Source: a virus. Taken from it: 27,785 nucleotides of DNA. Positions 2,745-9,608 of this stretch are shown here, one piece after another; the first letter of the stretch is position 1; each line of letters opens with the position of its first letter. The position numbers and the translations under genes are program-made. The notes under the pieces were generated by a model, which saw only the letters and a program-made list of their open reading frames with translations, had not been told where the DNA came from and did not search any database. The DNA lies in the IMG/VR virus record IMGVR_UViG_3300025151_000225, positions 1 to 27,785 of that record; one strand, written 5' to 3'.

Positions 2745-4421
2745 ATGTTCAAATCAAATCGTAACCCTCAGTTTAGATCTAAGTTTAGTGAAGATATATT
2801 CAATGCTAAGTACGCTCATGAAGGCGCAGAAACTTTACATGAGTTAGCTTGCACTCTGGTTGAAGATGTCTGTCGAGATAATTTAAGCCGTGATGAAAAG
2901 GAAGAACTGATAGATCACATATCTAATCTACGTTTCCTTCCCGGTGGACGTTACCTCTACTATGCAGGTAGAGATAAAAAGTTTTTTAATAACTGCTACC
3001 TTCTCAAAGCAGAAGAAGATACAAGAGAAGATTGGGCTAACCTTTCTTGGAAGGCAGAGTCTTGTCTTATGACAGGTGGTGGTATAGGTGTAGACTATTC
3101 TGTATACAGGGCTGAAGGACAAACCCTGAAGGGAACAGGTGGTATAGCTAGTGGCCCTCTACCTAAGATGGAAATGATAAACTCGATTGGTCAAAAGGTT
3201 ATGCAAGGTGGTAGCCGTAGGTCTGCTATCTATGCTTCTCTTAACTGGAAGCATGAGGATGTAAATAAATTCTTAAAGATAAAGAACTGGTTTGATATAC
3301 CTGTAGGTACAACAGGACAAACCTTATTTGATATTAAACAAGATGACTTTAATTTTCCTGCACCTCTTGACATGACAAACATCAGTGTTAATTACGACAC
3401 AGAATGGTTACTTAATTATTGGGAGAAAGGAGAAATAGGAAATGTCTTTCAATCTAATTGTGGTCAGGCTCTTAAAACTGGAGAGCCGGGGTTCTCATTT
3501 AACTTCTTTGAAAAAGAAAATGAAACACTTCGCAATGCTTGTACGGAAGTTACAAGTGAGAACGATAGTGATGTATGCAATCTTGGCAGTCTTAATTTTG
3601 CTAGGATTGATGACCTTAACCAGTTGCAGCAAGTCGTACAGCTTGCGACCAAGTTTCTACTCTGTGGAACCACAAGAGCAGAGTTACCTTACGCAAAAGT
3701 TTATAATGTTCGTGAGAGTAATAGACGTTTGGGATTGGGACTCATGGGATTACACGAATGGCTCATACAACGTAATAACAAATACGAAGCTACCCCCGAA
3801 TTACATAGGTGGTTTAAAGTTTATGAAGCTGAAAGTGACAAAACCTCAAGAGACTTCTCCCGAACCCTTTCAGTTTCACAACCCGTTGCCGTCAGAGCAG
3901 TTGCGCCTACAGGTACAATAGGTATACTGGCTGGTACATCTACAGGTGTTGAGCCTATCTTCTCTGTTGCTTACAAGCGCAGGTATCTGAAGAACAAGAG
4001 ATGGCATTATCAATACGTAGTAGACAGTGCTGCTCAAGAGATGATTGATATCTATGGTGTGAAGCCTGACAAGATTGAATCAGCCCTTGACCTAGCCACA
4101 GACTATGAACGTAGACTAAGCTTCCAAGCTAATGTTCAAGAGTATGTAGACATGTCTATATCCTCTACAATTAACCTACCTGCTTGGGGAACTGAAGACA
4201 ACAACGAAGATAAGGTTGAAGACTTTGCTCAGACCTTGGCTAAGTATGCTCACAGGTTACGTGGCTTTACCTGCTACCCTGATGGGTGTCGTGGTGGTCA
4301 ACCGCTTACGACTGTGCCTTACTCTGAAGCTATTGAGAAGCTAGGCGAAGAGTTTGAGGACAACATTCAGGCTCATGACATCTGCGAAATCAGTAACTCA
4401 GGTGGGGTATGTGGAGTTTAG
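2745..4421 (+). CDS. nrdJ: Class II (B12-dependent) ribonucleotide reductase
   Basis: The 558-residue enzyme would reduce ribonucleotides to deoxyribonucleotides for phage DNA synthesis. Visible landmarks are FLPGGR (64-69), the first redox cysteine in NNC84, the N264-x-C266-x-E268 active site (thiyl-radical cysteine and glutamate), the partner cysteine C278 in CNLGSLN, and PTGTIG at 388-393. Two late cysteines, C547 and C556, lie at the extreme C-terminus and may be the redox pair that re-reduces the active site, although their 8-residue spacing is wider than the usual CxxC or CxxxxC. No N-terminal ATP cone is obvious, and no small-subunit (NrdB) gene is nearby, which favours the adenosylcobalamin class. 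It is shorter than typical NrdJ (about 700 residues). GGAG upstream supports the start. Confidence 0.85.
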   Translation: MFKSNRNPQFRSKFSEDIFNAKYAHEGAETLHELACTLVEDVCRDNLSRDEKEELIDHISNLRFLPGGRYLYYAGRDKKFFNNCYLLKAEEDTREDWANLSWKAESCLMTGGGIGVDYSVYRAEGQTLKGTGGIASGPLPKMEMINSIGQKVMQGGSRRSAIYASLNWKHEDVNKFLKIKNWFDIPVGTTGQTLFDIKQDDFNFPAPLDMTNISVNYDTEWLLNYWEKGEIGNVFQSNCGQALKTGEPGFSFNFFEKENETLRNACTEVTSENDSDVCNLGSLNFARIDDLNQLQQVVQLATKFLLCGTTRAELPYAKVYNVRESNRRLGLGLMGLHEWLIQRNNKYEATPELHRWFKVYEAESDKTSRDFSRTLSVSQPVAVRAVAPTGTIGILAGTSTGVEPIFSVAYKRRYLKNKRWHYQYVVDSAAQEMIDIYGVKPDKIESALDLATDYERRLSFQANVQEYVDMSISSTINLPAWGTEDNNEDKVEDFAQTLAKYAHRLRGFTCYPDGCRGGQPLTTVPYSEAIEKLGEEFEDNIQAHDICEISNSGGVCGV

Positions 4422-4422
4422 T

Positions 4423-4539
4423 ATGGCAAAGATAAAAAACAACAGAGGTAAGATGTCTCACTGCAATACAAAGAAAGAAAGAGATCCAGAATTAATTAAG
4501 CTATGGAAAAAAAGACTTGCAAAGAAACAAAAAGTGTAG
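4423..4539 (+). CDS. Basic 38-residue peptide
   Basis: A short reading frame begins one base after the reductase stop, with GGAG seven bases upstream of its ATG. The peptide is strongly basic (MAKIKNNRGK at the start, KKRLAKKQKV at the end) and contains one cysteine. It may bind nucleic acid, but nothing identifies a family. The good ribosome-binding site and coupling to nrdJ support translation. The hsp20 promoter overlaps its 3' end. Confidence 0.5.
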   Translation: MAKIKNNRGKMSHCNTKKERDPELIKLWKKRLAKKQKV

Positions 4540-4545
4540 TATAAT
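4517..4545 (+). promoter_or_regulatory. Strong sigma-70 promoter for hsp20
   Basis: TTGCAA (4517-4522) and a perfect TATAAT (4540-4545) are separated by exactly 17 bases. The predicted transcript starts near 4552 and has a leader of about 52 bases. This is the same architecture as the ssb promoter. Confidence 0.78.
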
Positions 4546-4549
4546 ATAG

Positions 4550-4576
4550 TATGGAATGCCAATAGTGGGTTCCATA
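4550..4576 (+). promoter_or_regulatory. Hairpin at the 5' end of the hsp20 leader
   Basis: TATGGAA (4550-4556) pairs perfectly with TTCCATA (4570-4576) around a 13-base loop, at or just after the predicted transcription start. The TTCC arm (4570-4573) could instead pair with GGAG (4593-4596) of the ribosome-binding site. This raises the possibility of a switch or thermosensor, but an operator or a 5' stabilising stem is equally possible. Confidence 0.5.
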
Positions 4577-4603
4577 ATATCTTGCTTTTAAAGGAGAATA
4601 ATT

Positions 4604-5050
4604 ATGAATTATACGTTACACACTAAGTCTAGTGATCCCTTTTCGCTGAGTGATTTTAGGGATTGGGTCATAGGTTATGACAGAGTATTTCAAAAGATGT
4701 TGACTCTGCCTTCGGCAGCAACACATTCCAACTATCCCCCTCATAATTTAGTAGAAGATGGTGAAGGCCAATACACAATTAGTATGGCTGTTGCTGGTCT
4801 TGATAAAGAAGATATCAAGATAACACTAGCTGAACAAAATCTTACTATTGAATATGATGGTAAAAGTTCTGGAGATCAAGACGGTACTGTTCTGTACCAA
4901 GGTATTGCTCATAGAAGTTTCAAGAAAATATTTCACCTTGCTGAAAACATTGAGGTGAGGGATGCTGCTATGGACAAAGGTTTAATAACTATTAAACTGG
5001 AACAGAACATTCCTGAAGAAAAGAAACCAAAAACTATTGAACTTAAATAA
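4604..5050 (+). CDS. Small heat-shock protein, Hsp20/IbpA family
   Basis: The 148-residue protein is an IbpA-like alpha-crystallin-domain chaperone that would hold unfolding proteins during infection or virion assembly. The N-terminal arm (about residues 1-45) includes an aromatic stretch similar to the IbpA start. The alpha-crystallin domain (about 48-140) has ISMAVAGLDKEDIKI, then GIAHRSFKKIFHLAE and GLITIKLEQNIPEE, all hallmark positions of the family. The C-terminal tail is short (KPKTIELK). AAGGAG seven bases upstream sets the start. It has its own promoter and leader hairpin. Hsp20 genes are recurrent in marine T4-like and T7-like phages. Confidence 0.93.
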   Translation: MNYTLHTKSSDPFSLSDFRDWVIGYDRVFQKMLTLPSAATHSNYPPHNLVEDGEGQYTISMAVAGLDKEDIKITLAEQNLTIEYDGKSSGDQDGTVLYQGIAHRSFKKIFHLAENIEVRDAAMDKGLITIKLEQNIPEEKKPKTIELK

Positions 5051-5061
5051 AGGAAATACTA

Positions 5062-5856
5062 ATGGGTATTAGTAAAGAGAAGAAGGTGAATACAGTTTTC
5101 ATAGGATACGATCCTAAAGAGAAGGTTGCAGCCCAAGTACTTAAATACTTAATTGAAGCTAACTCACCAAAGGATATTATAGTTAAGTTTCTACGTAAAG
5201 ATATCTTGGAGCATATGAATATGTTCAATCGTCCATTTGAATGGGAGAATGGTCAGATGATTGATTCCATAGATAAGAAACCTTTCTCAACTGAGTTCAC
5301 TTTTACTCGCTTTCTAGTACCTGCTTTGATGCAGTACGAAGGGTGGGCTTTGTTTATGGATTGTGATATGTATCCCAGAACAGATATCAATGAGATATTT
5401 GAAGATTATAACGATGAGCTTTATCCTTTGTACTGTGTTAAGCATGAGTATGAACCAACGGATAAATTTAAAATGGATGGACGGGAACAGACAAGATACA
5501 ATAGAAAGAACTGGTCAAGTCTAATGCTATGGAACTGTGGTCATGAGTTAAATAAAACACTAACACCATTCATGGTCAACAACAAGACAGGTAACTATCT
5601 CCATACCTTTGGGTGGTTGCCTAACAAGAACAGTGCCATAGGTAAGATGGATGAAGAGTGGAACTGGCTTGATGGTCACTCCTCTCCTGACATAGATCCT
5701 AAGATCGTACACTTTACCACAGGTGGGCCTTGGTTTCCTGAATGGAAATGTAAACGTGAGGTAGATGGCCTGATGGCTACAGAGTGGAATGGTGATTATT
5801 CATATTTAGTATTACATGGGAAAGTTGATGAACTACAAAATAGCGACAGCATTTAA
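5062..5856 (+). CDS. Glycosyltransferase, GT8-like (GT-A fold)
   Basis: This 264-residue protein has the GT-A plan: a first strand with VFIGYD (residues 12-17), a conserved STEFTFTRFLVP helix (76-87), and an intact metal-binding D100-C-D102 after the hydrophobic strand GWALFM. A C-terminal segment, IVHFTTGGPW (215-224), occupies the place of the H-x-x-G-x-x-K/W motif of GT8 enzymes. It should transfer a sugar from a nucleotide-sugar donor in the cytoplasm. The acceptor is unknown and could be host lipopolysaccharide, a virion protein or another protein. Its 3' end overlaps the next gene by 41 bases (29 if that gene starts at its second ATG), and a methyltransferase follows, so it is probably part of one glycan-modification unit. 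Confidence 0.8.
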   Translation: MGISKEKKVNTVFIGYDPKEKVAAQVLKYLIEANSPKDIIVKFLRKDILEHMNMFNRPFEWENGQMIDSIDKKPFSTEFTFTRFLVPALMQYEGWALFMDCDMYPRTDINEIFEDYNDELYPLYCVKHEYEPTDKFKMDGREQTRYNRKNWSSLMLWNCGHELNKTLTPFMVNNKTGNYLHTFGWLPNKNSAIGKMDEEWNWLDGHSSPDIDPKIVHFTTGGPWFPEWKCKREVDGLMATEWNGDYSYLVLHGKVDELQNSDSI

Positions 5857-8903: not shown

Positions 8904-9291
8904 ATCAGTTATTGGAGTAGCAGGTAAAGTCCTTGATAAGTTTGTAGAGGACAAAGACCTGAAGACTAAATTAGAAGCAGAGCTAAAGACACAGATGGTG
9001 TCACTAGATCTTGCTCAAGCACAAGCAAATATAGAACAAGCGAAACATCCTTCCATCTTTGTAGCCGGGAGCCGACCAGCTATCATGTGGATATGTGCCT
9101 TTGCTTTAGGTTGGCAGTTTATCTTTGCCCCTATTATATCATGGGGATTAATAATCTGGTATCCTATGATTACACTGCCTAGCTTGCAAACAGCAGAGCT
9201 TACATCACTTGTCCTTGCTTTATTAGGACTAGGTGGTATGCGTAGCTTTGAGAAGTCTAAGGGTATTCAAAGGAACAACATGAAGAAATGA
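8887..9291 (+). CDS. Holin, 3-TM family (GTA_holin_3TM-like)
   Basis: The 134-residue protein begins with an amphipathic/coiled-coil segment (residues 1-53), followed by a conserved-looking AGSRPAIMW entry (60-68) and hydrophobic segments at about 66-83, 84-98 and 104-118, ending in a basic tail. This is the layout of the three-TM holins known from gene transfer agents and alphaproteobacterial phages. It would permeabilise the inner membrane so the endolysin can act. A strong AGGAGG six bases upstream fixes the start, which overlaps the methyltransferase by 17 bases. The matching endolysin is on the opposite strand at 10402-10779. Confidence 0.85.
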   Translation: MIGIAESVIGVAGKVLDKFVEDKDLKTKLEAELKTQMVSLDLAQAQANIEQAKHPSIFVAGSRPAIMWICAFALGWQFIFAPIISWGLIIWYPMITLPSLQTAELTSLVLALLGLGGMRSFEKSKGIQRNNMKK

Positions 9292-9608
9292 TTATCTTAA
9301 CAGATAATGCAGACATACATCTGTCATCAATCATAAACGAGAACAACGATACTGCTATCAGACTAGCTGTTAATAGTGGTGGCTGTTCTGGTTTCACTTA
9401 TGATTGGCAGTTGACCAGTGAAGAGGAAGACGGTGACTACATTGTTGACCTAGATTCTGGTAAGCTTCTGATAGATAGTGTATCTGTACTTTATCTGGAA
9501 GGCATGACTATAGATTATAAGAAAGATATCTTTGGTCAACGTCTGATGATAGATAATCCTAATGTTAAATCTATGTGTGGCTGTGGGGAGAGCTTTCAAC
9601 TGTCATGA
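9288..9608 (+). CDS. IscA/HesB-type iron-sulfur carrier (auxiliary metabolic gene)
   Basis: The 106-residue protein has the A-type carrier signature: three cysteines in GGCSGF (C33) and CGCGESF (C97, C99), with the intervening IDSVSVLYLEGMTIDY region typical of IscA, ErpA and SufA. It would bind and hand on Fe-S clusters in the cytoplasm. Possible clients within the window are few; the Cas4-like exonuclease, with its cysteine cluster, is one. It overlaps the holin stop by ATGA, so translation is probably coupled, and it may be made late. IscA-like genes are known from marine phage genomes. Confidence 0.9.
   Translation: MIILTDNADIHLSSIINENNDTAIRLAVNSGGCSGFTYDWQLTSEEEDGDYIVDLDSGKLLIDSVSVLYLEGMTIDYKKDIFGQRLMIDNPNVKSMCGCGESFQLS

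Follow-up and report, generated by a model that had tools for sequence, protein, structure and literature searches.

The leader of the hsp20 gene in the viral DNA analysed here, a virus record of 27,785 bases that is called the window throughout, is probably a short, two-hairpin RNA element of the ROSE type (positions 4550-4606), borne by a phage and controlling the translation of its own Hsp20. Nucleotide sequence demonstrates both hairpins and the ROSE motif, together with compensatory change in hairpin I, a nearly invariant hairpin II and a tie to hsp20 across diverse phages. A class of element known from bacteria accompanies hsp20 in 80 of 80 loci picked by their protein (the best 80 of at least 550 relatives), and in 16 of 19 isolate genomes. 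The following features of the window are of relevance.

4517-4545, plus strand: promoter-like sequence, TTGCAA (4517), 17 nt and TATAAT (4540-4545), a sigma-70-like match
4550-4576, plus strand: hairpin I, TATGGAA-T pairing with G-TTCCATA, with bulged G4558 and with CC 4559-4560 pairing with GG 4567-4568
4581-4586, plus strand: anti-Shine-Dalgarno CUUGCU, including the ROSE motif UUGCU (4582-4586) with bulged G4584, as placed by the Rfam ROSE_3 alignment
4592-4596, plus strand: Shine-Dalgarno AGGAG, the 3' arm of hairpin II (4581-4596)
4604-5050, plus strand: hsp20, small heat-shock protein of 148 aa (Pfam HSP20, E 4.6e-16; phrog_432, E 6.6e-32)
1805-2203, near hsp20: SegE-like GIY-YIG endonuclease
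2745-4421, near hsp20: ribonucleotide reductase with a hint of a class II insertion domain
9288-9608, near hsp20: Fe-S assembly protein (Fe-S_biosyn)

An earlier note on this DNA had called the gene hsp20, congruent with the Pfam match, and the letters agree with its placement of TTCC at 4570-4573, of GGAG at 4593-4596 and of the ATG at 4604. The window also encodes a terminase small subunit and a virion structural protein, and a nucleotide search with positions 4400-5300 against phage records returned no match. Between the reductase and hsp20 lies a short, lysine-rich reading frame (4423-4539), within the 3' end of which the promoter match starts. The promoter of its own that the earlier note had assigned to hsp20 is recovered as a TTGCAA/TATAAT match with a spacer of 17 nt; however, the region holds 5 such sites versus 4.6 expected, and the match by itself is therefore no evidence. 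The -10 box and the stretch preceding it are kept in the close relatives, and we infer that hsp20 is transcribed from the TATAAT promoter.

The marks of ROSE elements are a U(U/C)GCU motif opposite the Shine-Dalgarno sequence and, in Pseudomonas ibpA, a two-hairpin layout, and such leaders are active in reporter assays (PMC3669281, excerpted text). The sequence examined here is likewise the leader of a small heat-shock gene, it possesses a conserved 5' hairpin, and a U(U/C)GCU motif faces the Shine-Dalgarno sequence in a 3' hairpin with a bulged G. The Rfam family ROSE_3 (RF02523) aligns over its full length (1-69) to positions 4550-4609, with 36.2 bits and an E-value of 2.8e-6 (201 bases searched), and sets CUUGCU 4581-4586 opposite AGGAG 4592-4596 with G4584 bulged. 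This E-value was obtained with laxer filters on the leader; RF02523 run across the window's own record gave nothing at E<=0.001. The score is below the gathering score of 43, hence the match does not represent a curated-level hit. Gathering-level matches to ROSE_3 were absent in the 8 sources searched, including the window, and 18 of 20 phage loci (59 kb) lacked a match at E<=1, the two exceptions being L108 with 34.1 bits and L113 with 26.8 bits. In P. putida, thermoregulation is lost when the upper G-C pair is opened (PMC3669281, excerpted text). Of the G-C pairs that flank the Shine-Dalgarno core in Pseudomonas, the lower is present in the window as C4581-G4596, and the place of the upper is taken at best by U4587-A4591, as judged by eye. 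A fourU thermometer was also considered and rejected, for the UUUU at 4586-4589 sits on the loop side beside the Shine-Dalgarno sequence and is not kept, relatives having for example CUUAUU or CUGAAA.

Hairpin I includes the perfect 7-bp hairpin that had been described previously, formed by TATGGAA 4550-4556 and TTCCATA 4570-4576. Folded alone (4548-4580) it reaches -10.6 kcal/mol with a z-score of -2.48, and 3 of 200 shuffles are as good. The longer leader 4550-4606 is less striking (z -1.65, 13 of 200 shuffles as good), the leader 4552-4606 is no better than shuffles (z -0.61, 56 of 200), and the stretch 4552-4640 has a z-score of +0.34 (117 of 200). If the RNA began at 4552, hairpin I would be shortened by 2 bp and, in the model, would drop to 0.43 at 10 °C, which counts against the ROSE reading.

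The association with hsp20 was assessed in two sets of viral sequences from IMG/VR. The first was picked by leader, using a fixed hairpin pattern, and comprises 38 contigs; in all 38 the leader is followed by an open reading frame with the same kinds of N-terminus, complete in 32, and the Pfam HSP20 family was matched in 9 of 9 cases, namely seven diverse pattern-picked frames, the window and L009. With the stem prescribed by the pattern, these contigs are uninformative on covariation, and a protein-based scan was therefore made, in which a profile of nine phage Hsp20s was run against IMG/VR and the best 80 of at least 550 relatives (at least 599 stretches) were kept. These 80 loci are consequently the nearest relatives and not a random sample. 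Among the 81 leaders (the window and the best 80 of at least 550), CTTGC or a variant stands beside hsp20 in 78, as CTTGCT in 70, CTAGCT in 3, CTTGC without the T in 3 and CTCGCT in 2, and the motif is absent from this position in three, L169, L173 and L174. In these three the element is found about 205 nt upstream, before a 65-aa open reading frame that ends at hsp20 (sequence read in L169). Within L169 (1186-1447) the frame after the element is without a Pfam match and hsp20 follows directly behind it, thus their translation or regulation may be coupled.

For covariation we used an alignment, A3, of 56 of the 81 leaders (identical ones dropped), made with MAFFT without structure; its rows L169 and L173 come from the wrong place, the element being further upstream, and count against the structure. 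RNAalifold, unaided, returned seven pairs on A3, all in hairpin I and six with two-sided changes. With the ROSE structure imposed, 93.2% of 822 cells are paired and 10 of 15 pairs display two-sided change, the two-sided cells amounting to 72 versus 14.2 in shuffled alignments, a value that none of 500 shuffles reached. When the partners are displaced by 1 to 3 columns, the pairing falls to 44-58%. Nearly all of the covariation is found in hairpin I, where 9 of 10 pairs show two-sided changes (56 leaders). Hairpin II is paired in 99.6% of cells, with three of five pairs that never vary, one that varies one-sidedly, and a two-sided change in a single pair of a single leader (L167, U-A to A-U). 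The case for hairpin II is thus made by its conservation and by the known family, and hardly by covariation.

That nearly all covariation sits in hairpin I would also be expected if the hairpin were a mere 5' stability or insulating element, with the ribosome-binding site free and CUUGCU kept for another reason, and the computed closure of the hsp20 Shine-Dalgarno sequence is unexceptional among the window genes. We regard this explanation as improbable, since CUUGC(U) is kept beside AGGAG in 78 of the 81 leaders (window and best 80 of at least 550) with varying letters in between, hairpin II has changed from U-A to A-U in the L167 lineage, and the ROSE_3 match spans both hairpins. The inverted repeat moreover closely follows the -10 box, around where transcription is expected to begin, as a DNA operator at the promoter would be. 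Such an operator is however judged very unlikely, as the two hairpin arms vary in concert and have no constant sequence, the loop spans 4 to 10 nt (54 leaders), and the upstream boxes are mixed. In the 81 leaders (window and best 80 of at least 550) these are TATAAT/TATACT in 50, TATAAATA, which we take to be the T4 late promoter, in 15, late-like in 4 and neither in 12, so that the promoter-like boxes preceding the element are not all of a single kind.

Alignment A3 also bears on the switch put forward in the earlier note, in which the hairpin I arm TTCC 4570-4573 would swap to pair with GGAG 4593-4596. The two are complementary, with four pairs including one G-U; nevertheless, the energy of this pairing is only -0.1 kcal/mol. 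Two checks that had been suggested alongside the proposal, folding of the leader at 10-37 °C and a search for compensatory changes, both spoke against it: the pairing probability is at most 0.0004, and on 56 leaders there are 0 two-sided cells, with a score identical to that of shuffled alignments (500 of 500 shuffles). For this alternative fold, a two-state switch resembling that of lambda cIII was rejected on the same grounds of energy, probability and missing covariation, and we regard the swap as exceedingly improbable. The earlier note had overlooked CUUGCU 4581-4586, and it is this segment that is conserved as the counterpart of the ribosome-binding site. The suggestion of an RNA thermometer as such fared better, being upheld in kind by the ROSE anatomy, the ROSE_3 match and the tie to hsp20, and failing in the particular switch that was described.

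The data support a model in which hairpin I remains folded and a separate hairpin II (UUGCU with AGGAG) hides the ribosome-binding site. Hairpin I would serve as a scaffold, CUUGCU with its bulged G would pair to AGGAG and keep ribosomes off, and the weak helix of hairpin II would open on warming and permit translation of Hsp20. That hairpin II hides AGGAG until it opens is the most likely arrangement, and we infer masking in vivo with heat as the signal. Computed accessibility of AGGAG is 0.04 at 4 °C and increases with temperature, reaching 0.24 at 37 °C and 0.39 at 50 °C. Among the window's 25 gene starts, 23 of which have a Shine-Dalgarno-like stretch, several are as closed or more responsive to temperature, and the computed melting is therefore no proof of thermosensing. 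For hairpin II in the ROSE register, nearest-neighbour energies are -1.9 kcal/mol at 4 °C and +1.8 kcal/mol at 37 °C, and they are around zero or positive across 25-37 °C; this model omits the non-canonical contacts of ROSE elements. A pairing shifted by one base, UCUU:AGGA, competes with the ROSE register in the ensemble, and the Shine-Dalgarno sequence is masked either way. The phage helix, which lacks the upper G-C pair, may be adapted to colder water.

A covariance model, R1, was built from A3 and matches 80 of 80 protein-picked loci (the best 80 of at least 550) at E<=1e-5; 77 of the 80 matches end at the hsp20 start codon and the other 3 lie before the short reading frame, and the best match elsewhere in those 246 kb has an E-value of 0.37. 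As most of these leaders are included in A3, the 80 of 80 is largely in-sample. Out-of-sample material was provided by isolates, by bacterial loci and by the upstream elements of L169, L173 and L174.

The isolates were chosen among those listed out of 506 Hsp20-matching records and comprise 21 regions, 19 of which were searched with R1 as whole genomes (3.67 Mb). These are the Pelagibacter phages HTVC115P, HTVC103P, Mosig and HTVC008M, the Methylophilales phage Melnitz, phage C48C1, the cyanophages S-TIM5, MED4-213, ACG-2014j, S-SKS1, P-SSM4, S-PM2, P-HM2, ACG-2014f, S-CAM8 and S-RIM2, the Sinorhizobium phage Phosso, the Agrobacterium phage Atu_ph07 and the Vibrio phage IBT_VpB-34. R1 reached E<=0.01 in 16 of the 19 genomes, including the cultured phages S-PM2, P-SSM4 and HTVC008M, with a single such match per genome that in every case ends at the first codon of hsp20. 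Four further matches elsewhere in the 19 genomes have E-values of 0.23 to 0.75. Among the 19, S-TIM5, ACG-2014j and IBT_VpB-34 are without a match at E<=0.01, ACG-2014j having a partial one at its own hsp20 (E 0.79). A structure-free model of alignment A3 recovered 8 of the 16 isolate matches at E<=0.01. Two additional sequences are outside the 19-genome search, L206, a 5-kb single-cell virus fragment that matches R1 at E 2.7e-05, and L114 (OQ572409.1, Pseudomonas phage Y7, unverified). The latter carries an apparent Pseudomonas ibpA gene with a ROSE leader, and is probably host DNA.

Eighteen leaders outside the training set, those of the 16 isolates together with L206 and L009, served as a held-out set. 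Here, 96.0% of 250 cells are paired and two-sided cells number 52 versus 14.8 when shuffled, in an alignment that is fitted to the model and leans its way; in this fitted alignment, hairpin I again shows two-sided changes in 9 of 10 pairs. For P-HM2 (L200, NC_015284.1, PHM2_147) we note that the annotated hsp20 start is 72 nt too far upstream and overlaps the element. The ATG at position 335 of L200, 72 nt inside the annotated gene, fits the element as well as the protein start of MED4-213.

In bacteria, a pattern of hairpin I plus YTTGCT identified 56 loci in a species-genome collection, of which 37 lie before dnaK (Rhizobium and kin), 7 before hsp20 and 1 at a contig end, and the 11 others look like chance. 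Six of the 7 hsp20 loci were assigned by Pfam, and L070, which is cut off after 9 residues, by likeness to L079. R1 recognizes L076, L052, L054 and L050 at E<=0.01 and is weak for L079, L070 and L071 (E 0.08 to 3.5). The closest bacterial leader is L076, labelled Rhodobacteraceae, with 69.3 bits. The ibpA leader (L052) of Pseudomonas mendocina, a species among those tested in PMC3669281 (excerpted text), served as a yardstick and is matched by ROSE_3 with 66.6 bits and by R1 at E 1.3e-6. ROSE_3 also matches L054, at 31 bits, and gave no match at E<=0.5 for L076, L079 and the dnaK leader of L063. The dnaK leaders (37 of the 56 loci; L051, L055-L058, L063 and others, from Rhizobium and kin) share GGAATGCC..GGGTTCC..CTTGCT and AAGGAG, and the gene downstream in L063 was confirmed as dnaK (Pfam HSP70). 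On these leaders R1 reaches only E 0.2 to 3. The Rhizobium-type dnaK leader may be a ROSE-like element.

Alternatively, the ROSE fold might be kept mainly as a sensor of protein aggregation, with free Hsp20 of the phage or IbpA of the host binding the leader and repressing it. Misfolded protein would then draw Hsp20 off during infection, so that the stress of infection and not heat triggers the gene. We hold this to be possible although on the unlikely side, and it is compatible with a thermometer. The phage Hsp20s were aligned to IbpA, and the places referred to here presumably correspond to Arg93 and Arg97. An Arg occupies the Arg93-aligned place in 75 of 79 distinct phage Hsp20s (73 by script and 2 by eye; L169, L173 and L174 not counted). 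This recalls E. coli, where IbpA binds the 5' UTR of its own message and thereby represses translation, Arg93 being required (PMC10474464, excerpted text). However, an Arg at this place may be a common trait of the protein family, only 21 of 70 proteins have a basic residue at the place aligned with Arg97, which E. coli IbpA likewise requires, and three of the four proteins that lack the Arg (L165, L168 and L113) come from loci carrying the element. Self-binding of Hsp20 is possible as a second layer of control on top of the ROSE-type element favoured here. Taken further, ROSE could be a regular component of hsp20 genes across many groups of phages, where it would report misfolding brought about by infection rather than heat: Hsp20 of phage or host would bind its own leader and release it as client protein accumulates during virion production, supplying chaperone on demand at the level of translation. 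We advance this only tentatively and consider it rather unlikely.

Among the papers listed in our literature search, which covered open-access articles other than preprints, none reports ROSE elements in phages. By term search, two papers on cyanophage small heat-shock proteins (PMC3827213, PMC5028025) contain neither 'thermometer' nor 'upstream', and two papers on ROSE before ABC transporters (PMC12857270, PMC11342760) contain neither 'phage' nor 'virus'. What would be new is a ROSE-like anatomy in phage, as predicted here, that falls below the Rfam gathering score and lacks the upper G-C pair. The findings suggest selection on sensing the state or the temperature of the infected cell, and the questions of why and when marine phages use hsp20 become testable by a simple reporter fusion. 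Phage RNA thermometers have been described as few, and comprise lambda cIII, SPbeta blyA (fourU) and the sigma70 leader of a gut phage (fourU) (PMC11182007, 2024, excerpted text). The window leader resembles these in being a structured leader RNA of a phage, theirs setting translation by temperature, and differs in structure class and gene, as none of the three is a ROSE element and none precedes hsp20 (PMC11182007, excerpted text). With E. coli ibpA it shares a ROSE-type leader before a small heat-shock gene and the Arg at the Arg93 place (75 of 79), whereas the Arg97 place is mostly non-basic in the phage proteins (21 of 70 basic), a comparison by sequence alone (PMC10474464, excerpted text). 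Unlike the curated members of RF02523, the window leader scores 36.2 bits against the gathering score of 43. It further deviates from the ROSE element of Pseudomonas ibpA in residing in a phage, in being AT-rich and in having no G-C pair above the Shine-Dalgarno core. In other respects it is built like the short Pseudomonas ibpA ROSE, a small heat-shock 5' UTR of about 55-60 nt with two hairpins, U(U/C)GCU against the Shine-Dalgarno sequence with a bulged G, and the AUG unpaired (PMC3669281, excerpted text).
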